NCBI GenBank assembly: GCA_030596265.1
Contig: JAUVKM010000038.1
Coordinates: 1 to 11,083, forward strand
DNA from: Candidatus Cloacimonadota bacterium
GTDB lineage: Bacteria; Cloacimonadota; Cloacimonadia; Cloacimonadales; TCS61
DNA: 11,083 nucleotides
Reading direction: 5' to 3'
Part shown: in pieces, positions 2,470 through 10,573 of the stretch
Layout of the letters: the number at the start of each line of letters is the position of its first letter
How positions within the stretch are numbered: the stretch's first letter is position 1
The notes under the pieces: model-generated
What the model saw: the letters and a program-made list of their open reading frames with translations, nothing else
Told to the model about the DNA's origin: nothing
The model's database searches: none
Position numbers and translations under genes: made by a program

Positions 2470-3501
2470 ATGAAAAAAGTAAAATTTGCTCTTATTGGTT
2501 GTGGTCGGATTTCAGCTAAACATTTTGAAGCAATCGAACGAATTGAAGGTGCAGAAGTTATTGCCTGTGCAGATATTATTAAACAACGAGCTGCAGACTC
2601 TGCAGAAAAATTTAAAATTAAAACTTATTATTCCGATTATAAAAAAATGTTAGATAATGAGAATGTAAATGCTGTAATAATTTGCACTCCAAGTGGTATG
2701 CATTCCCAAATGGGCATTGAAGCGGCAAAAAGAAAGATCAATGTGATTAGTGAAAAGCCAATGGCTATAGATTTAAAATCTGCTGATGCTCTTGTTAAAG
2801 CATGTGATGATAATCAAGTTGAACTTTTTATTGTGAAGCAAAACCGTTTGAATCCATCCATTCAATTACTTAAAAAGGCAATTGATAAAGGAAGATTCGG
2901 AAGATTATTTAGTGCTAATGCAACAGTACGTTGGACTCGTCCTCAAAGTTATTATGATCTTGCAAAATGGCGTGGAACCTGGGAATTTGATGGTGGTGCT
3001 TTCATGAACCAGGCTTCTCATTATTTTGATCTTATTCAATGGCTGATGGGTCCAGTAGAGTCTGTAATGTCATTTACAGCAACCTTGAATCATAACATAG
3101 AAACTGAGGATATGGGAACAGGAATCATTCGTTTTAGAAATGGAGCGATAGGTACAGTAGAAGTTACAATGAATACATTTCCAAAAAACCTTGAAGGATC
3201 TATTACAATAATGGGTGAATACGGTACAGTTAAAATTGGTGGGATTGCTGTAAATCAAATAGATTATTGGGAATTCAAAGATTATGACGATGATGATAAA
3301 TTGATCGAGACTGCTAAAACTGATCCTAAAAGTGTTTATGGTTTTGGGCATTTTGGTTTCTTGCAAAATGTTGTTGATGTCCTCCGAGGAGAGGATACTC
3401 CAAATACTGATGGTAGAAGTGGTAGAAAATCACTAGAATTGATCTTGGCTATGTATCAATCAGCAAAAAATGGGAAGAAAATAGCTCTTCCACTAAGATA
3501 A
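2470..3501 (+). CDS. Gfo/Idh/MocA oxidoreductase, WlbA/WbpB-like UDP-GlcNAc-uronate 3-dehydrogenase candidate, 343 aa
   Basis: This is a cytoplasmic NAD(H)-dependent sugar oxidoreductase. The Rossmann domain opens with FALIGCGRISAKHFEAI (GxGxxS-type loop at residues 10-15). CTPSGMH (72-78), the catalytic-loop EKPMA (Lys96) and VKQNR (122-126) follow, then the C-terminal domain with RPQSYYD, WRGTW, and GGAFMNQASHYFD carrying the conserved His184, and NLEGS. This pattern is that of WlbA/WbpB, which oxidises C3 of UDP-N-acetylglucosaminuronic acid on the way to UDP-diacetamido-uronic acids for surface glycans. Length is normal. The start has AGAGG ten bases upstream. The aminotransferase and acetyltransferase that follow WlbA in known pathways are not in the window, so the exact substrate is inferred. 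It appears to be the first gene of the operon, 16 bases before the polyprenyl synthase gene. Confidence 0.82.
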   Translation: MKKVKFALIGCGRISAKHFEAIERIEGAEVIACADIIKQRAADSAEKFKIKTYYSDYKKMLDNENVNAVIICTPSGMHSQMGIEAAKRKINVISEKPMAIDLKSADALVKACDDNQVELFIVKQNRLNPSIQLLKKAIDKGRFGRLFSANATVRWTRPQSYYDLAKWRGTWEFDGGAFMNQASHYFDLIQWLMGPVESVMSFTATLNHNIETEDMGTGIIRFRNGAIGTVEVTMNTFPKNLEGSITIMGEYGTVKIGGIAVNQIDYWEFKDYDDDDKLIETAKTDPKSVYGFGHFGFLQNVVDVLRGEDTPNTDGRSGRKSLELILAMYQSAKNGKKIALPLR

Positions 3502-3517: not shown

Positions 3518-4405
3518 TTGTTAGTACAAGAATATTTTAAGACACGTTCAAGATTATTAGAGAAAGCACTGGATCAATATTTAGCACCATCTGATAAGTA
3601 TCCTGAACAGCTTCATGAAGCAATGCGATATAGTGTATTCAGTGGTGGTAAACGAATGCGACCTATTTTGTTCTTTGCAACATATGAGATGCTTATCAGG
3701 AGAAAAAACATTAATCGACTGGCAAGATTAATGCCTGTTGCCTGTGCATTGGAACTAGTTCATACAGCCTCACTTATCCATGATGATTTGCCAAGTGTTG
3801 ATAATTCTTCGGAACGCCGTGGTATTCCAAGCTGCCATGAGAAATTTGGAGAAGCAACCGCAATTCTTACCGGAGATGCACTAATCACAAAAGCCATTGA
3901 ACTTCTTACTGAGATTAGTAATAAAAAAGTGGCACTTGATTGTATACACGTTCTTTCTAAAGCGGTTTCCACAAGAGGAATGATCGGCGGTCAGGCAGTT
4001 GATATTTTATCTGCAAAGAAGAAAGTGAATATCAATACACTTCGTTATGTACATCTAAAGAAAACAGGGGCATTACTGCAAGCAGCTATGGAACTTGCAT
4101 GTGTAATTGAAGGAGCAGAAGAAAACCTTACAATAACCCTTAGTAATTTTGCTCTTAACCTTGGTTTAGCTTATCAGATAGTTGATGACATTCTGGATGA
4201 AGTTGGAAGTTTCGAAGTTCTTGGAAAAAATCCTGGCGGAGATTCCAGAAGCCATAAAGCAACTTATCCATCGCTGTTAGGACTCGAAAAATCCAAAATG
4301 AAAGCAGAAAAACTTCTCAGAGATTGCTATAATCTAGTTAAGAACATGAAAGCGAATGACGTTTTATTGGAATTTGTAAATATAGTAAAAGATCGGTTAC
4401 CATAA
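3518..4405 (+). CDS. Short-chain (E)-polyprenyl diphosphate synthase, probable GGPP synthase, 295 aa
   Basis: This enzyme condenses isopentenyl diphosphate with allylic diphosphates to make C15-C20 isoprenoid chains. Motifs in order: GGKRMRP (43-49), first Asp-rich motif DDLPSVD (89-95) followed by RRG (100-102), GGQ..D near residue 150, second Asp-rich motif DDILD (223-227), then GKNPGGDSRSHKATYP. The form of the first motif is bacterial type II FPP/GGPP synthase (IspA/CrtE-like). Residue -5 from that motif is Ala84, where FPP synthases have Tyr or Phe. The open pocket predicts a C20 or longer product, which fits the GGPP-using gene downstream. The start is TTG at 3518, supported by AGAGGG (3507-3512) five bases before it and by normal family N-terminal alignment. 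It sits 16 bases after the dehydrogenase gene and 9 bases before the UbiA gene. Confidence 0.9.
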   Translation: MLVQEYFKTRSRLLEKALDQYLAPSDKYPEQLHEAMRYSVFSGGKRMRPILFFATYEMLIRRKNINRLARLMPVACALELVHTASLIHDDLPSVDNSSERRGIPSCHEKFGEATAILTGDALITKAIELLTEISNKKVALDCIHVLSKAVSTRGMIGGQAVDILSAKKKVNINTLRYVHLKKTGALLQAAMELACVIEGAEENLTITLSNFALNLGLAYQIVDDILDEVGSFEVLGKNPGGDSRSHKATYPSLLGLEKSKMKAEKLLRDCYNLVKNMKANDVLLEFVNIVKDRLP

Positions 4406-4414
4406 AATTCTAAG

Positions 4415-5236
4415 ATGCCTTTTATAAAGATAATTCGCCCCTTTAATTGCCTATTCGTAATTCTCTCAGTTTTTTTTGGAGCGTTATATCAATCATCAAT
4501 TAGTAATATCTATCCAATAATATTTGCAGCACTTTCTGCATCCCTTATTGCTGCAGCCGGTTATGTAATCAATGATTTCTTTGATATTCCAATTGATATT
4601 ATTAATCGACCGGATCGAATATTGCCTTCTGGTAAGATATCTCCAAAAGTAGCTTACCTCTTTTCTATAATGCTTTTCATCTTTGGAATAACTGCAAGTT
4701 ACTTTACTCAGAATTATTATTGTGTGATCATTGCAATTATTAATAGCATTTTGTTATTTAGTTATGCAAAGACATTTAAAATGAGTTTTTTGATTGGGAA
4801 CATCCTTGTTGCCTATACAACCGCAAGTACATTCCTATTTGGTGGATTATGTAATAATAATGTAAAAAATTCTATGATTATTGTTATTTTTGCTTTCTTA
4901 TATACTTTCATAAGGGAAATTGTGAAAGATGGTGAAGATATTGAAGGCGATATTAAATTGGGTGCCAAAACTCTTGCCGTGAAAATAGGTAGAAAAAATA
5001 TCGCAATTATATCCATTTTTCCTGCTTCAGGGATTATTCTCTATTCAATATTTCTATCTATGAATAATATGATTAGTTTGAAAGTTTTTTTAGTTCTAAC
5101 AGTAGGCATTTCTTTACCGCTTACTATTTTAATAATATATATTTTAAGAAAAAGTGAAGTAAAAAGATTTGCAAATGCTTCATCCTTGATGAAGATAAAT
5201 ATGTTAATGTTGTTAATAATTTTATGGGTTGGTTAA
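4415..5236 (+). CDS. UbiA-superfamily prenyltransferase, DGGGP synthase-like, 273 aa
   Basis: This integral membrane enzyme probably attaches a second geranylgeranyl chain to geranylgeranylglyceryl phosphate, forming the second ether bond of an archaeol-type lipid. The first Mg/diphosphate motif is NDFFDIPID (53-61) followed by INRPDRILPSGKIS. The second is REIVKDGEDIEGD (167-179) followed by GAKTLAVKIG. The NRPDR-PSG and REIVKD.ED.EGD forms are those of archaeal DGGGPS, rather than of MenA, UbiA or CyoE. Eight or nine hydrophobic segments cover the rest of the chain, and length is normal. The start ATG has no clear Shine-Dalgarno site and lies 9 bases after the polyprenyl synthase stop, which suggests coupling. 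The gene for GGGPS, which makes its expected substrate, follows at once. Substrate choice is inferred from motifs and context. Confidence 0.87.
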   Translation: MPFIKIIRPFNCLFVILSVFFGALYQSSISNIYPIIFAALSASLIAAAGYVINDFFDIPIDIINRPDRILPSGKISPKVAYLFSIMLFIFGITASYFTQNYYCVIIAIINSILLFSYAKTFKMSFLIGNILVAYTTASTFLFGGLCNNNVKNSMIIVIFAFLYTFIREIVKDGEDIEGDIKLGAKTLAVKIGRKNIAIISIFPASGIILYSIFLSMNNMISLKVFLVLTVGISLPLTILIIYILRKSEVKRFANASSLMKINMLMLLIILWVG

Positions 5237-5237
5237 A

Positions 5238-5984
5238 ATGAAAATTTATAATAAACTATTGGAACTTGCAAAGAAGCGAGCCAATTATTTTTGTCTGTTA
5301 GATCCAGACGAATTAGCGGCTGATAAAGTAAAAGATTTTGCTAAGATGTGTGAAGAAAATGGAGCCGATGGATTACTTGTTGGTGGAAGCATAATGGTAA
5401 ATAATAAATTCCAATCAAATTTAAAACTCATCAAGGAGAGCGTGAATATTCCTGTTTTAATATTTCCCGGAATCTTTGATTTTGTATCTCCTCATGCAGA
5501 CGCTCTGCTTTTGTTAAGCGTGGTTACTAGTCGCAATCCGCAAATGCTTATCGGTGAGCAGGTTCGTGCAGCACCATTAATAAAACATTATGGTTTGGAA
5601 GCCATTGGCACGGCTTATATGATAATTGAATCCGGGAATAGCACTTCAGTTCAGTTTATGAGCGGTAGTTTGCCACTTCCAAGGACAAAGAATGATCTTG
5701 CTGTGGCACATGCGCTGGCAGGGCAGTATCTTGGAATGAAGTTAATCTATATGGATGCTGGAAGCGGAGCAAAATATGCTGCAACCGATGAAATGATTGC
5801 TGCAGTAAGAAAAAATGTTGATCTTCCAATAATTCTTGGTGGTGGGATCAAAACTCCGGAAGTAGCAATGCAAAAAGCAATAGCAGGTGCAGATTTTATT
5901 GTAACTGGTAATGTGCTTGAAAATAATCCTGATCCAAAATTAATCAGAGAATTTGCGGATGCGATCCACAGTATAAAAAGATAA
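5238..5984 (+). CDS. Group II geranylgeranylglyceryl phosphate synthase (GGGPS/PcrB superfamily), 248 aa
   Basis: This TIM-barrel prenyltransferase makes the first ether bond, joining GGPP to sn-glycerol-1-phosphate. Motifs: LLDPDE (20-25), GLLVGGS (45-51), FPGIFDFVSPHADA (76-89), SRNPQMLIGEQVRAAP (98-113), YMDAGSGA (171-178), and the phosphate-binding GGGIKTPEVA (201-210) and ADFIVTGN (218-225). This set is typical of the archaeal/Bacteroidota group II family, not of the short PcrB form of Firmicutes. Asp173 stands where the family normally has Glu, and GTAY (124-127) replaces the usual PTGY. I chose the ATG at 5238, one base after the UbiA stop; a TTG at 5229 in the same frame would overlap UbiA and lacks support. 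The last base of its stop is the first base of the next ATG. Confidence 0.92.
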   Translation: MKIYNKLLELAKKRANYFCLLDPDELAADKVKDFAKMCEENGADGLLVGGSIMVNNKFQSNLKLIKESVNIPVLIFPGIFDFVSPHADALLLLSVVTSRNPQMLIGEQVRAAPLIKHYGLEAIGTAYMIIESGNSTSVQFMSGSLPLPRTKNDLAVAHALAGQYLGMKLIYMDAGSGAKYAATDEMIAAVRKNVDLPIILGGGIKTPEVAMQKAIAGADFIVTGNVLENNPDPKLIREFADAIHSIKR

Positions 5985-6754
5985 TGATAGATATTCATAC
6001 ACATATCCTTCACAACTGCGATGATGGTTCTGATAGCCTTGAACTTTCAATCGAACAGATTACAAATATGATCGATAAAGGCGTTACGGATATTGTGCTC
6101 ACACCGCATTATATGAATAGCTATGTTCAAACCGATGCAAAGATTATTGATAAACAATTTAAAGAATTATCAAAAGCTACTGCGAATTTAGAAGTCAATC
6201 TTCATAAAGGCGGAGAGATCTTTCTAAATCCTGGTGTTGAGAACAAGATAGATAGGGAACTTTGTATTGGAGAGACTTCCTATATTTTAGTTGAGACATA
6301 TATGGGTGAATTCACACCTGATATTTATGAAATTCTTTTCAAATTAGTTCGAAAAGGACTGCGACCGATTCTTGCTCATCCCGAACGCTATAATTATATC
6401 ATGAATGATCCTGAAATGGCAGAAGATTTTCTGCATAGGAATGTTTACTTACAGGTTAATGCCGGAAGTATTTTAGGACTTTACGGACCCAAAATTGCAA
6501 AGACTGCTTGGTATCTTATTGATAACGGATTTGCTCATTTTATTGCTTCCGACAATCATTGTAAAATTGATGAATATATATTACCTGCTGCAATAGAAGC
6601 AATTCGTGACAATATTGATGACTATACCGCAGATCTCCTATCGCAGATCAATCCTCAGAAAATGTTGAATAATGAGAATATCAAATATTTTTACCTGGAA
6701 AAACGACCAACCAAAAAGAAAGGATTTTTTGAAAAGATCCTAAAAAAAATATGA
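5984..6754 (+). CDS. PHP-domain phosphatase, CpsB/CapC/YwqE-like, 256 aa
   Basis: This is a metal-dependent phosphoesterase of the PHP superfamily, closest in pattern to the Mn-dependent CpsB/YwqE protein-tyrosine phosphatases that control capsule and exopolysaccharide synthesis. The predicted metal ligands are all visible: DIHTH (His5, His7), TPHY (His42), GGEIF (Glu78), LAHPERY (His132) and SDNH (Asp190, His192). HNCDDGSDS after the first motif is also typical. Length is normal. The C-terminus, about the last 17 residues, is Lys-rich and amphipathic (KRPTKKKGFFEKILKKI), which might touch the membrane. The start overlaps the GGGPS stop by one base, and its own stop overlaps the next start by four, so it is translated with the lipid genes. 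No BY-kinase partner is present in the window. The true substrate could be a phosphotyrosine protein or a small phosphoester. Confidence 0.86.
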   Translation: MIDIHTHILHNCDDGSDSLELSIEQITNMIDKGVTDIVLTPHYMNSYVQTDAKIIDKQFKELSKATANLEVNLHKGGEIFLNPGVENKIDRELCIGETSYILVETYMGEFTPDIYEILFKLVRKGLRPILAHPERYNYIMNDPEMAEDFLHRNVYLQVNAGSILGLYGPKIAKTAWYLIDNGFAHFIASDNHCKIDEYILPAAIEAIRDNIDDYTADLLSQINPQKMLNNENIKYFYLEKRPTKKKGFFEKILKKI

Positions 6755-7731
6755 CAAGTAAAATATTAATAACCGGCATTAGCGGGTTTGTCGGGCGGAA
6801 CGTTCTTAGACAATTAATACAAAGTTATGAGAATATAACTGCGATAATCCGTCCTGGAACTAAGCATCAGCGAATAAAAGAATTTATTGATAAGGTTGAA
6901 TTTGCTGAGATCGACCTTACAGATATTTCTACCTTAAAAGAATATCTTGATGAGAATTCTTTTGAAATAATAATTCATATTGGTGCTGTTCGAGGTGGTC
7001 GTAAATTAAATAATTCTAATTACTTCGATGCAAATGTAAATGCAACTGAACAGCTTGTGATCAATGCAAGAGATAATGATTCAAAGTTTATCTTCTGTTC
7101 CTCAGTCGGTATTTTTGGTGCTATTCCACTTGAGTTACCCGCTAACAATTTTACAAAAAGGCAAGAAGATAATTACTATCATTTTACAAAGATCAGAGCA
7201 GAATCAATAATCCAGAAATATGTTCTTTATGGATTGAAAGCAGCAATAATAAGACCTTCGATTACTTATGGAGCAAATGATTATGGCTTTCCATTTACAC
7301 TAACAAAATTAATTGATAAAAAGCTTCTTTTCCTACCTGACCAGGATGTGATTATTCATCTTGCAAATATTAATGTGATCACTCAATCTTTTATGAAACT
7401 TATCGAGATCGATTATCAACCGGGGATTTGTTATAATGTAGCTGACAGTCATCCGGTAGAATTGCATAAACTTGCAGAATTTATTAATAATGAATTAAAG
7501 GGAAAACCATATTCTACCAAAAGAGATATTGATATTAATTATTTTAAAAAGGGAGAAAAGATAGCAAAATTCTTTAAGAGCGAACTCTGGATTGCACGTT
7601 TCCAATTGATTTCAAGACATTGGTATTATGATGTTGGAAACAGCTATATTGATTTGAGTTTGAAGGGAACTGATACAATTCCAAATTTTAAGATCGTTAC
7701 AGATTGGTATAAAGATCTGAGATCGAAATAA
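6751..7731 (+). CDS. Extended SDR, NAD(P)-dependent epimerase/dehydratase-family protein, 326 aa
   Basis: This is a cytoplasmic Rossmann-fold oxidoreductase of the extended short-chain dehydrogenase type. The nucleotide-binding loop is TGISGFVG (Gly9, Gly12, Gly15). IHIGAVRGG lies at the end of beta-4, the active-site Ser lies in CSSVGIFG (Ser117/118), and the catalytic pair is Tyr143 and Lys147 in YHFTK. RPSITYG and a variable C-terminal substrate domain follow. Such enzymes act on nucleotide sugars, sterol-like lipids or other carbonyl/alcohol substrates, and sequence alone does not decide which. The catalytic residues look intact. The start overlaps the phosphatase stop by four bases (ATGA), strong evidence of co-translation. 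In this operon it could reshape a sugar headgroup or reduce a lipid intermediate. Both are inference. Confidence 0.82.
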   Translation: MTSKILITGISGFVGRNVLRQLIQSYENITAIIRPGTKHQRIKEFIDKVEFAEIDLTDISTLKEYLDENSFEIIIHIGAVRGGRKLNNSNYFDANVNATEQLVINARDNDSKFIFCSSVGIFGAIPLELPANNFTKRQEDNYYHFTKIRAESIIQKYVLYGLKAAIIRPSITYGANDYGFPFTLTKLIDKKLLFLPDQDVIIHLANINVITQSFMKLIEIDYQPGICYNVADSHPVELHKLAEFINNELKGKPYSTKRDIDINYFKKGEKIAKFFKSELWIARFQLISRHWYYDVGNSYIDLSLKGTDTIPNFKIVTDWYKDLRSK

Positions 7732-7744
7732 TACGGGTAAACTA

Positions 7745-8590
7745 ATGGCAATTCCGATATTGAAAAACTGGAAAAAATATTTTACTAACACCGATGAAGG
7801 TCTTGGCTCTTCTTATGAGAGAATTATATTGAACAATAAATTAGAATCCATCTGTAAGCATTTCAATATTTCATCGGTTCTTGAAGCTCCATGTTTTGGA
7901 TTTACCGGTTTATCTGGTATCAATAGTATGGGTTTAGCTAAAGATGGAAAGAAGATAACTCTTCTAGATAATGATAAAAAGCGAATCGAACTGATTGAAA
8001 AAACTTGGAAGGGAATGAAGCTTCCACTCACGATCGAATATTTAAAAGAATTCAGTCCTTTGTATTTTGCAGATAATTCATTTGATCTTAGTTGGAATTT
8101 TTCTGCACTCTGGTTTGTAGATGACTTATCTGGTTTTCTTAGAGAACTTACAAGAGTTACATCAAGAACTATATTGTTATGTGTTCCCAATAGAAATGGA
8201 ATGGGGTATATTTCCCAGAAAATTCTTGGGTACAAAGAATTGAAGAAGCATTTGAAAGAAGAAAATATATTACCACGCAAAATAAAAAAGGAAATGAAAA
8301 ATAATGGTTGGATATTGATTGATAGCAATTATATTGATTGCCCACCTTGGCCGGATATTGGTATGCCGAAAGAAAAATTCTTAAAGATATTCGGATTGAG
8401 TTGGTTGTTAAAAAAGAAAGAACATAAACCAATGACTATTATGGATTATTATGGTGGAAAAGATCCCCATTTTCCTGAGAAAATGATGTCTCATTTCTGG
8501 CTTGAAAAGAAAGCACCAAAATTATTGAAAACCTTTTGGGCACATCATAAATACTTTCTGTTCATTCCAGTTAAACAGGTTAAAAAATAA
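7745..8590 (+). CDS. Class I SAM-dependent methyltransferase-like protein, 281 aa
   Basis: The fold pattern is that of a class I methyltransferase, but the family is not one I recognise firmly. VLEAPCFGFTG (45-55) occupies the place of motif I, with Pro-Cys-Phe in place of the usual Gly-x-Gly. LLDND (73-77) gives the acidic residue that binds the SAM ribose. FDLSWNFSALWFVDDLSGFLRE resembles the motif IV and post-IV region of Methyltransf_11 proteins. TILLCVPNRNG would be the next strand. The C-terminal half is rich in Lys and aromatic residues and may bind substrate. No signal peptide or membrane helix is seen. It starts 13 bases after the SDR gene with only a weak GGGTA before it, and its stop overlaps the flippase-like gene by one base. 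A role in methylating a lipid headgroup or glycan is possible but unproven. Confidence 0.65.
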   Translation: MAIPILKNWKKYFTNTDEGLGSSYERIILNNKLESICKHFNISSVLEAPCFGFTGLSGINSMGLAKDGKKITLLDNDKKRIELIEKTWKGMKLPLTIEYLKEFSPLYFADNSFDLSWNFSALWFVDDLSGFLRELTRVTSRTILLCVPNRNGMGYISQKILGYKELKKHLKEENILPRKIKKEMKNNGWILIDSNYIDCPPWPDIGMPKEKFLKIFGLSWLLKKKEHKPMTIMDYYGGKDPHFPEKMMSHFWLEKKAPKLLKTFWAHHKYFLFIPVKQVKK

Positions 8591-9588
8591 TGAAAAAGAA
8601 CGGTCTTAATTGGATAGTTGGAATAGCTCTTGGTGCTATCTTTTTAATAGCCTGGATACGTATTGTTGACTGGCAGGAATTCATCAAGTATTTCCATGAA
8701 TTCGATCTTAAGATGGTTTTGGTCTTCTCTCTTTTTTATTTATTAGCATATATCTTGCGGAGTTTGCGTTGGAGAATAATTTTAAAACCTATTTATAAAA
8801 TGGGATTAATAGAGAGTTTTTCCATCTTTATGTCTGGAATGCTGATAAATTATATTATCCCGATACGAGCAGGTGAGATCGCAAAATCAGTTATCCTCAA
8901 AACCAGAGAAAATGTTAAAGTATCCGATAGTCTTCCTTCGATCTTTATTGATAAACTTACCGATCTTTTCCCGATAATATTCATAATGATACTCATCCCA
9001 CTTGTATCAATAAAATTAAATTCAGCACTTTATATCATTATAGGCCTTCTGTTCCTAGTTTTTCTTTTATTTCTTGCATTCCTATTTTTTGCAGTTAATC
9101 ATAAAGATAAAGCTATAAAGATATTGAAATATTTATTAAAACTTATATCAAAGAAATACAGAAGAAAATTTGAAGGTTTCTTTATCAATTTTGTGGATGG
9201 AATGGCAATAATGCATGGTAGATTTACGGAAAACTGTCTTGTATATCTTCTTACGTTACTTGCTGTTTTATCAGAAGCTATATATATTTATACGGTTTTC
9301 AGAGCATTTGGTTCCGAAGTTTCATACATGAAAATTTTATTCGGATACACTCTGATGAATCTCACATATATACTTCCAACTCCTCCTGCACAGATTGGTT
9401 CGAATCAGTTCATGTGGGTGCTGATATTTTCATTTGCATTGGGTGTGAACGAAAACCTTACAAGTGCAGCAGTTACATTTTCTCATCTATTAACATCAAT
9501 CTGGATATTCCTTACAGGTGGGATTTCCTTGATTGTACTTAAAATTAATTTGAACCAGCTTATAAAGAATAATAATGAAAAGGATTAA
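8590..9588 (+). CDS. YbhN/AglD-type LPG-synthase transmembrane-domain protein, flippase-like, 332 aa
   Basis: This polytopic inner-membrane protein belongs to the UPF0104/LPG_synthase_TM family. Members include the membrane domain of MprF, which flips lysyl-phosphatidylglycerol, and stand-alone proteins linked with lipid or lipid-linked-sugar translocation. Hydrophobic segments lie at about 8-26, 42-60, 78-91, 120-140, 146-170, 218-237 and 300-322, with more between 250 and 290. Family motifs are RSLRWRIIL (57-65), IPIRAGEIAKS (90-100), and LPTPPAQIGSNQF (262-274). The last is usually followed by Glu in the family, and here has Gln273. There is no soluble aminoacyl-transferase domain, so it is not an LPG synthase itself. 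It overlaps the methyltransferase stop by one base and precedes moxR by one base. In this setting it is a candidate for moving the ether lipid or its modified form across the membrane, which is inference. Confidence 0.83.
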   Translation: MKKNGLNWIVGIALGAIFLIAWIRIVDWQEFIKYFHEFDLKMVLVFSLFYLLAYILRSLRWRIILKPIYKMGLIESFSIFMSGMLINYIIPIRAGEIAKSVILKTRENVKVSDSLPSIFIDKLTDLFPIIFIMILIPLVSIKLNSALYIIIGLLFLVFLLFLAFLFFAVNHKDKAIKILKYLLKLISKKYRRKFEGFFINFVDGMAIMHGRFTENCLVYLLTLLAVLSEAIYIYTVFRAFGSEVSYMKILFGYTLMNLTYILPTPPAQIGSNQFMWVLIFSFALGVNENLTSAAVTFSHLLTSIWIFLTGGISLIVLKINLNQLIKNNNEKD

Positions 9589-9589
9589 T

Positions 9590-10573
9590 ATGGAAAAGAA
9601 TATTGAAATATTAGAAAAACTTCCAAAAATTAAAGAGAATATAATCCATGAGATCGGAAAAGTAATTGTAGGCCAGGATGTAATAATCGAACAAATGTTA
9701 ATTGCTTTGATCTCTAATGGGCATTGTCTTCTGGAAGGTGTACCAGGATTGGCAAAAACGTTAATGATCTCAACAATGGCAAAGGTTCTAAATATGAAAT
9801 TCAGCAGGATCCAATTTACCCCGGATCTTATGCCTTCCGACATAACCGGAACAGATATTCTGGCAGAAAACAAAGCTGACGGTAAAAGATATTTTGAATA
9901 TATCAAAGGTCCAATTTTCGCAAATATAATATTGGCTGATGAGATAAACAGAACACCTCCAAAAACGCAAGCTGCCTTATTGCAGGCAATGCAGGAATAT
10001 CAGGTTACTGCTGGTAATAAAACTTTTGATCTTGATAGACCATTTCTGGTTCTGGCAACTCAAAATCCAATTGAACAAGAAGGAACATATCCTCTTCCTG
10101 AAGCGCAGTTAGACAGATTCATGTTCTATCTTAATATAGATTATCCTTCTTATGAAGAGGAAAAAATGATCGTTAAAAATGATGCATTCGCTTCATTGAA
10201 TTCGGTTATATCTATTATAGGTGCAGAAGAGATCATTCAAATCCAGAACGCAGTAAAAGAAGTTCCTGTAAGCGAGCATGTGCTTGAATTTGCTGTAAAA
10301 CTTGCTCATACAACCAGATCTCAATATGATAATGCACCAGACTACATTAAAAAATGGGTAAGCTGGGGAGCCGGACCAAGAGCCAGCCAATATTTGATAT
10401 ATGCTGCTAGAAGCAGAGCAGTTCTGCAAGGTAGATTGACACCTGCAATTGATGATGTGATCAGCGTAGCACAAAGTGTTCTTCAACATAGAATTATTAT
10501 TTCATTTGCAGCTGAAGCTGAAGGCATTACACCAAAAAAAATAATTAATAAGATCATTTCAGATTTGAATTAA
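9590..10573 (+). CDS. MoxR-family AAA+ ATPase, 327 aa
   Basis: This is a cytoplasmic AAA+ chaperone-like ATPase of the MoxR class, which usually helps mature or activate protein complexes together with DUF58 or von Willebrand A partners. Walker A is the MoxR-type GVPGLAKT (50-57). RIQFTPDLMPSDITG follows. Walker B is IILADEINR with Asp117 and Glu118. Sensor 1 is in LATQNP (155-160), and EAQLDRF supplies the arginine-finger region. The lid domain follows (AVKEVPVSEHV, WVSWGAGPRASQYL). I chose the ATG at 9590 because AAAAGGA (9578-9584) lies five bases before it. An in-frame ATG at 9575 overlaps the previous gene by 14 bases and lacks a ribosome site. It starts one base after the flippase-like stop and ends in tandem stops (TAATAA). 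No DUF58 or VWA gene follows in the window. Confidence 0.93.
   Translation: MEKNIEILEKLPKIKENIIHEIGKVIVGQDVIIEQMLIALISNGHCLLEGVPGLAKTLMISTMAKVLNMKFSRIQFTPDLMPSDITGTDILAENKADGKRYFEYIKGPIFANIILADEINRTPPKTQAALLQAMQEYQVTAGNKTFDLDRPFLVLATQNPIEQEGTYPLPEAQLDRFMFYLNIDYPSYEEEKMIVKNDAFASLNSVISIIGAEEIIQIQNAVKEVPVSEHVLEFAVKLAHTTRSQYDNAPDYIKKWVSWGAGPRASQYLIYAARSRAVLQGRLTPAIDDVISVAQSVLQHRIIISFAAEAEGITPKKIINKIISDLN

Follow-up and report, generated by a model that had tools for sequence, protein, structure and literature searches.

The analyzed stretch of DNA (hereafter the window) comprises 11,083 nt from a Candidatus Cloacimonadota genome close to Tenebribacter. Three adjacent genes in it, spanning positions 3518-5984, had originally been predicted from their motifs to encode a GGPP-type synthase, a UbiA/DGGGPS-like protein and a GGGPS. 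The open reading frames were found at these positions and the families were established by profile searches (Table 1). The plainly bacterial character of the neighbors of the trio was also verified for mutS, HU and others. The longest open reading frame of GGGPS covers 5229-5984 with a TTG start at 5229, but the ATG at 5238 is the more likely start, given that the alignments with many homologues begin no earlier than residue 4. The UbiA stop codon occupies 5234-5236, and the GGGPS ATG follows one base further. The AAA ATPase in the last row of the table is a putative MoxR-type protein. A promoter scan was uninformative (49 observed versus 43.8 expected).

Table 1. Genes of the predicted ether-lipid locus and their neighbors, with positions counted within the window.
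Feature	Position	Strand	Basis and remarks
Gfo/Idh/MocA-family oxidoreductase	2470..3501	+	PF01408, PF02894; upstream neighbor, not pathway-specific
Polyprenyl diphosphate synthase, predicted GGPP type	3518..4405	+	TTG start; PF00348, motif columns
UbiA-family DGGGP synthase-like protein (second ether bond)	4415..5236	+	PF01040, PRK12882, 6m31
GGGP synthase (first ether bond)	5238..5984	+	PF01884, PRK04169.1-2, TIGR01769, 4mm1; ATG start likely
CpsB/CapC-type PHP phosphoesterase	5984..6754	+	PF19567; start shares one base with GGGPS stop
NAD-dependent epimerase/dehydratase-type SDR, conserved neighbor	6751..7731	+	PF01370
SAM methyltransferase-like protein, conserved neighbor	7745..8590	+	PF08241
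Flippase-like membrane protein, conserved neighbor	8590..9588	+	TIGR00374 above cut-off
AAA ATPase, conserved neighbor	9575..10573	+	Weak chelatase/RavA matches

All three proteins scored above the Pfam cut-offs, with 194 bits for the synthase (PF00348), 116 bits for UbiA (PF01040) and 143 bits for GGGPS (PF01884). GGGPS also exceeded the curated NCBIfam cut-offs (PRK04169.1-2, 272 versus 247 bits; TIGR01769, 214 versus 161.55) and matched over nearly its full length the solved GGGP synthases 4mm1 (E 6e-52) and 4jej (E 6e-50), which we take to belong to 'group II'. These enzymes come from other organisms, however, and the activity of the window protein is predicted. For UbiA, the best NCBIfam model was PRK12882 (GGGP geranylgeranyltransferase), with 201 bits under a cut-off of 296, PRK12883 gave 144 bits under a cut-off of 353, and no curated DGGGPS equivalog cut-off was reached in the NCBIfam scan. 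The best model of any other named function was that of the chlorophyll synthase ChlG, at 74 bits. Likewise, the closest solved structure was the DGGGP synthase 6m31 (E 2e-35), presumably from M. jannaschii, and the next was a chlorophyll synthase (E 7e-11). Both Asp-rich motifs of the family are present and align with those of 6m31, although the window protein is bacterial and falls below the equivalog cut-offs. In profile and solved-structure searches alike its nearest relatives were DGGGP synthases rather than the menaquinone, heme or chlorophyll enzymes; it is grouping with the latter three that the original prediction had named as a refutation. Going by its best match, its context and the published homologue, as opposed to a curated model, the protein appears closest to DGGGPS. 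The synthase carries DDLPSVD as its first Asp-rich motif, DDILD as its second and Ala at position -5, a position whose residue is linked to the chain length of the product of polyprenyl synthases. With DDxxxxD and DDxxD intact and no aromatic residue at -5, it is probably of the GGPP type.

We then compared 124 genomes of the phylum, 67 GGGPS-positive and 57 GGGPS-negative. UbiA was present in all 67 positive genomes and in four of the 57 negative ones, the latter with weak matches only (E 5e-9 to 1e-23). The synthase, UbiA and GGGPS genes were grouped in 32 of 36 loci (L001-L036), and this arrangement is therefore not due to chance. UbiA lay at most 500 bp from GGGPS in 47 of 51 positive loci (L099-L149), the other four having no UbiA on the stretch, and among the remaining 16 positive genomes the trio was grouped in 15 (exception L033). 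GGGPS and DGGGPS-like genes thus adjoin in genomes of Cloacimonadota. The pair is flanked by the synthase and by the PHP-phosphoesterase gene, the latter lying no more than 500 bp behind GGGPS in 48 of 51 positive loci (L099-L149). PHP matches turned up in 117/124 genomes, GGGPS-negative ones included; G082 and G108, both GGGPS-positive, have theirs on a separate contig. At the PHP locus, sequence was obtained for 48 of the 57 negative genomes, and in 46 of them both synthase and PHP are present, as direct neighbors. Nine negatives fell outside this set (G032, G046, G053, G063, G064, G070, G099, G106 and G111), and for 11 of the 57 the absence of the pair rests on searches of genomes of unstated completeness. 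Since the PHP, SDR, methyltransferase, flippase-like and ATPase genes are retained without the pair, they are uninformative on ether lipids, and the same preserved order weakens the candidacy of the first four as head-group genes of such lipids. On the GGGPS stretches from outside the Cloacimonadota set (44 loci, L037-L080), neither a UbiA nor a synthase or PHP of this type was matched at E<=1. The GGGPS of Bacteroidota is 44-49% identical but has none of these three nearby on those stretches.

The presence of archaeal-type lipid genes in this phylum is already known, as the original prediction had correctly stated. Both GGGPS and DGGGPS have been described from the phylum and put to the test (Villanueva et al. 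2020, PMC7852524): the NIOZ-UU3 homologues make GGGP and DGGGP in vitro and in E. coli, PG-archaeol was formed in E. coli carrying the homologous pair, and the GGGPS accepted G3P as well in vitro. A scaffold of this type was also re-amplified by these authors. Their MAG NIOZ-UU2 corresponds to our locus L035, with 85% GGGPS identity to the window over residues 94-251. On the one hand, the published locus resembles ours in its phylum, in the co-localization of the two enzymes, in a polyprenyl synthase within the amplified region, in the lack of egsA/araM and CarS, and in the presence of bacterial lipid genes. On the other hand, it belongs to another lineage of the phylum. The suggestion that gene order and partners might be new does not hold for the synthase, because a polyprenyl synthase is already on the published scaffold. 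As regards the other partners, the main text of PMC7852524 makes no mention of operon, synteny, gene cluster, methyltransferase, epimerase or flippase. What is new here is that genomes without the pair keep the adjacent synthase in a form missing a catalytic residue; no mention of such decay in lineages without the pair was found in the part of PMC7852524 considered. In the literature examined, no report was found tracing archaeol to a Cloacimonadota cell.

Among distinct synthase sequences of at least 250 aa, D95 of the first motif was kept in all 59 from GGGPS-positive loci and lost in all 43 readable ones from GGGPS-negative genomes (33 M, 6 K, 3 N, 1 S). Two were not counted, namely L164 (G106), which has D95 but whose contig ends just behind the synthase, making its status uncertain, and L170, which has a gap at D95. 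The motif was intact in all 20 second synthase copies examined, ten per group. The locus synthase of negative genomes is under purifying selection (median dN/dS 0.12). Values of dN/dS were about twofold higher in negative genomes for synthase, SDR and ATPase alike, and the rise is therefore not specific to the synthase. In a synthase tree rooted on the second copies, with motif columns removed and without L164 and L170, the negatives were nested within a clade, and several positive lineages branched outside it. A single loss was not rejected (p-AU 0.61), so the motif change was perhaps a single event, and the tree tool warned of long branches meeting. In the PHP tree, from which proteins shorter than 200 aa were left out, 43 of 45 negatives formed one clade and L206 and L208 stood apart (three changes). 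We do not claim several independent losses with parallel decay, for which the PHP tree has three changes but the synthase tree allows one clade. Whether loss of the pair turned the neighboring GGPP synthase into a pseudoenzyme retained by selection is, from these alignments and trees, an evenly balanced question. The decayed synthase may serve as a partner without catalytic activity of its own, either to the intact FPP-type second synthase or to surface-glycan machinery, the latter being suggested by the neighboring genes. If so, the phylum would amount to a knock-out experiment performed by nature on mixed membranes, with one gene row occurring with and without the archaeal pair.

We also looked for the remaining functions. 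No genome among the 124 exceeded the NF002022 cut-off for G1P dehydrogenase (best 95 versus 413 bits), a strict cut-off that only 3 of 14 control genomes passed. The three best G1PDH-like matches of the phylum were glycerol dehydrogenases, all in GGGPS-negative genomes. PF13685 was above its cut-off in 64/124 genomes, but the end of the model was reached only in these three, and GGGPS-positive genomes had partial matches only (at most 43 bits). Among the Fe-ADH-like matches (17 genomes), the six proteins scanned were alcohol-dehydrogenase-like or AroB-like, which speaks against them as G1P dehydrogenases. A hidden G1P dehydrogenase role for the Gfo/Idh/MocA gene was weakened by orthologues (E<=1e-40) in 98/124 genomes, GGGPS-negative ones included. 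A G1PDH orthologue has been listed for Cloacimonetes (Coleman et al. 2019), which our searches of the 124 genomes did not reproduce. With no G1P dehydrogenase recognized among the genomes sampled, the question of where G1P originates becomes more pressing. The search for CarS (CDP-archaeol synthase) gave one match in 124 genomes, marginal (22.4 versus 22 bits) and identified as PgsA by NCBIfam. With at most 17 candidates scored per genome, a geranylgeranyl reductase exceeded the TIGR02032 cut-off in 59/67 positive versus 6/57 negative genomes (Fisher p 2e-19, uncorrected for phylogeny); among the eight positive genomes without one, G011, G084 and G095 held partial matches of 79-131 bits. PlsY was found in 64/67 GGGPS-positive genomes, so that of the two options first proposed, synthesis alongside bacterial lipids or in place of them, the former is favored.

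Gene identities, order, co-occurrence and motif changes are direct observations. They are very probably explained by a Cloacimonadota module that builds an archaeal lipid core beside ester lipids, the pair having been lost together elsewhere, with decay of the synthase. The three genes would be co-transcribed, and the locus synthase would supply GGPP, which GGGPS would attach to glycerol-1-phosphate and possibly to G3P too. Addition of a second GGPP by the UbiA protein would then yield unsaturated archaeol phosphate. Finishing would likely fall to bacterial CDP-diglyceride and head-group enzymes and saturation to a geranylgeranyl reductase encoded elsewhere, with the resulting lipids expected in the living cell. 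Taking loss as the direction of change, much of the sampled phylum would have lost the two ether-bond genes jointly from between the synthase and PHP genes of a conserved row, and with them the neighboring synthase would have lost motif aspartates yet been retained as a constrained protein. This supports the published case that bacteria can produce archaeal-type ether lipids, a case relevant to the lipid divide, and adds a contrast within one phylum, where the pair is present in 67 genomes and missing from 57, of which 46 were viewed at the locus. Loss of the synthase motif where the pair is gone is evolutionary evidence for synthase and pair working together, and the contrast names lineages in which mixed and plain membranes could be compared.

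The backbone may nevertheless be G3P rather than G1P, making the lipids archaeal only in chain and linkage. We regard this as a serious though less probable reading: no G1P dehydrogenase was recognized in the 124 genomes and the published GGGPS used G3P as well, but high G1P stereoselectivity in engineered E. coli, together with an unknown bacterial G1P source, has been argued in print against it. The product itself could also be something other than a membrane phospholipid. PcrB of B. subtilis makes a minor prenyl-glycerol product, and the pair might do the same, with PHP dephosphorylating it, or might run in reverse and degrade scavenged archaeal lipids. The closeness of PHP behind GGGPS and the lack of a dedicated G1P or CDP-archaeol enzyme among the 124 genomes fit this reading, and the reverse reaction has been raised for FCB species without G1PDH (Coleman et al. 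2019). It is unlikely, however, considering that PHP also occurs in GGGPS-negative genomes and on other contigs, that a GGPP-type synthase and a reductase accompany the pair, and that the homologous pair yielded PG-archaeol in E. coli.

An archaeal-bacterial assembly chimera, to which the archaeal-type and bacterial genes lying side by side might point, is very unlikely to the point of being negligible. An identical gene row recurs in many MAG contigs, the complete mutS-to-MarR order being repeated in ten loci (L004, L005, L006, L009, L016, L025, L026, L028, L030 and L034), and such a scaffold was re-amplified in the published work. We also consider it quite unlikely that the locus synthase functions as a farnesyl diphosphate synthase, with GGPP supplied from elsewhere. 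FPPsyn was indeed its best NCBIfam model, above the cut-off (299 versus 275 bits), while GGPPSynCrtE gave 267 bits, below its cut-off of 460. Position -5, however, holds Ala in 59/59 positive-locus synthases versus Tyr/Phe in 20/20 second copies examined, and it is the motif of the locus synthase that is gone where the pair is missing.

The GGGPS of the window passed the curated GGGP models of NCBIfam and aligned almost end to end with GGGPS chains of solved structure. For the adjoining UbiA protein, the best models and the best solved structure (6m31) were those of DGGGP synthase, chlorophyll synthase was far behind 6m31, and the curated DGGGP synthase cut-offs were not reached. The gene trio of the original prediction (GGPP supply and the two ether-bond enzymes) is real and was correctly read. 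A small residue at position -5 of prenyl synthases is indicative of GGPP, and an aromatic residue of FPP. The window synthase has both Asp-rich motifs and an alanine at -5; despite this alanine, its top-scoring NCBIfam match was the FPP subfamily.

Gene row of the window, in order
Gene	Coordinates	Strand
mutS, partial		+
2-thiouracil-desulfurase (DUF523-type)		+
HU (sole gene of the row on this strand)		-
Gfo/Idh/MocA oxidoreductase		+
Polyprenyl synthase	3518-4405	+
UbiA	4415-5236	+
GGGPS	5229/5238-5984	+
PHP phosphoesterase	5984-6754	+
SDR		+
Methyltransferase		+
Flippase-like protein		+
AAA ATPase		+
MarR-type regulator		+

With ATG 5238 as the GGGPS start, a single base separates this gene from UbiA, and its other end shares one base with PHP; such close packing suggests that the genes may be carried on one transcript. 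The nearest loci belonged to Candidatus Cloacimonadota MAGs, some bearing the name Tenebribacter, and GGGPS was 98% identical to that of locus L001. The PHP gene is fast-evolving, both by dN/dS in positive loci and against L001:10756-11526, with 77% identity as opposed to 91-99% for GGGPS, UbiA, SDR, and methyltransferase. Within loci, UbiA diverged faster than GGGPS and the synthase (65% versus 84% and 89% in L009).

That the core idea had been published, as stated with the original prediction, is borne out by Villanueva et al. 2020 (PMC7852524), whose main text describes four Ca. Cloacimonetes MAGs from the Black Sea in which GGGPS adjoins DGGGPS, one scaffold of which was re-amplified, a GGGPS active with both G1P and G3P, and PG-archaeol obtained in E. 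coli. The amplified region also contains a polyprenyl synthase, as in the window. The same authors noted two polyprenyl synthases along with geranylgeranyl reductases, and the absence of egsA, araM and CarS. A term search of the main text retrieved none of the terms operon, synteny, gene cluster, methyltransferase, epimerase, and flippase. A table in PMC5059525 (2016) gives Cloacimonetes a single mark, from which we conclude nothing. Archaeal lipid genes in Cloacimonadota are ordinary as a discovery, their core being already published, and it is the loss contrast between genomes with and without GGGPS that is of moderate interest.

A profile search found PF01884 in 67 of the 124 Cloacimonadota genomes (GGGPS-positive, the other 57 being GGGPS-negative). 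With the window UbiA as query (E<=1e-5), matches were obtained in 71 genomes, namely all 67 positives and four negatives, the weak matches in the latter probably being other UbiA proteins. Geranylgeranyl reductase exceeded its cut-off in 59/67 positive versus 6/57 negative genomes, with only 17 candidates scored where a genome had more, and some weaker match to the family occurred in every genome. Since PlsY was present in 120/124 genomes, and in 64/67 of the positives, bacterial ester lipids are expected too, which favours archaeal-type synthesis alongside bacterial lipids over synthesis in their place. Many genomes had two to four PlsY-family matches, some far weaker than the main one. Loci L014 and L015 (genomes G087 and G086) are titled Armatimonadota, yet locus and phylum grouping indicate Cloacimonadota, and the records are probably mislabelled. 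L037 (G017, Cloacimonetes bacterium 4572_55) carried a GGGPS at 50% identity, with UbiA, synthase, and PHP absent on the fetched stretch; G017 was not among the phylum genomes with a PF01884 match and seemingly does not belong to the phylum group that contains G001.

UbiA lay within 500 bp of GGGPS in 47 of the 51 positive loci L099-L149, and the remaining four stretches lacked UbiA, two being cut by contig breaks and two coming from the split genomes G074 and G075. GGGPS and PHP were equally close (<=500 bp) in 48/51. Among the three exceptions, the L122 sequence stops after GGGPS, and L109 (G082) and L133 (G108) continue past it without PHP, the best PHP match being on another contig. The module is split in G014, G074, and G075 (L033, L102, L103), with synthase-UbiA and GGGPS-PHP on different contigs and GGGPS preceded by >8 kb of other sequence. 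In GGGPS-negative genomes, 46/48 loci had the synthase 4-48 bp from PHP on the same stretch, and UbiA or GGGPS occurred in none of the 48. SDR, methyltransferase, flippase-like gene, and ATPase followed the same order in most of these loci. No such neighbours were found on the fetched stretches of 44 GGGPS loci outside the phylum, with profiles that recover the window's own proteins.

The locus synthase differed between the two groups. D95, the aspartate of its first Asp-rich motif, was kept in 59/59 distinct synthases from positive loci and lost in 43/43 readable ones from negative genomes; outside this count are L164 (G106), which keeps D95 but whose contig ends right after the synthase, and L170, with a gap there. 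The second motif was altered too, D227 being kept in 2/45 of the negative set (L164 and L206). Second-copy synthases kept both motifs, with Tyr/Phe at -5 in 20/20 (ten per group). We found no report of this motif change in the open-licence literature covered by our search. Median dN/dS, from pairs that are not independent, was 0.124 for altered (29 pairs) versus 0.050 for intact synthases (48 pairs). Since SDR (0.18 in negative versus 0.09 in positive loci) and ATPase (0.11 versus 0.05) rise alike and PHP shows the reverse (0.17 versus 0.31), only the continued constraint is informative: altered synthases still evolve under constraint. From the motif change we infer that these copies are probably inactive.

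The synthase tree, rooted by the second copy and with motif columns removed, favours loss of the pair (UbiA and GGGPS) over gain, because negatives fall within a clade outside which positive lineages branch successively. One positive row fell among the negatives in this quick tree, where long branches were flagged; a single loss was not rejected. The simplest reading is that the locus is a dedicated GGPP-GGGP-DGGGP module, whose synthase would supply GGPP to the two steps of the pair. After loss of both ether-bond enzymes this supply would be superfluous and the synthase motif free to change, though the altered protein would retain some role.

No G1P dehydrogenase was recognised in the 124 genomes, which does not deny that one exists. 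None exceeded the NF002022 cut-off (best 95 bits versus 413), a strict one passed by only 3/14 control genomes, and the three best matches were glycerol dehydrogenases, all in GGGPS-negative genomes. PF13685 exceeded its low cut-off in 64/124 genomes; only the same three had matches reaching the model end, and the best match in positives was partial (43 bits). Six candidate proteins scanned from GGGPS-positive genomes proved alcohol-dehydrogenase-like or AroB-like. Coleman et al. 2019 (PMC6431249) report a G1PDH orthologue for Cloacimonetes, a listing in conflict with the main text of PMC7852524 and with the present searches. A glycerol dehydrogenase gene, L196:6266-7354 (G055, GGGPS-negative), lies ~300 bp upstream of an altered synthase, and its product exceeds the NF006941 cut-off and also has a weak G1P dehydrogenase score.
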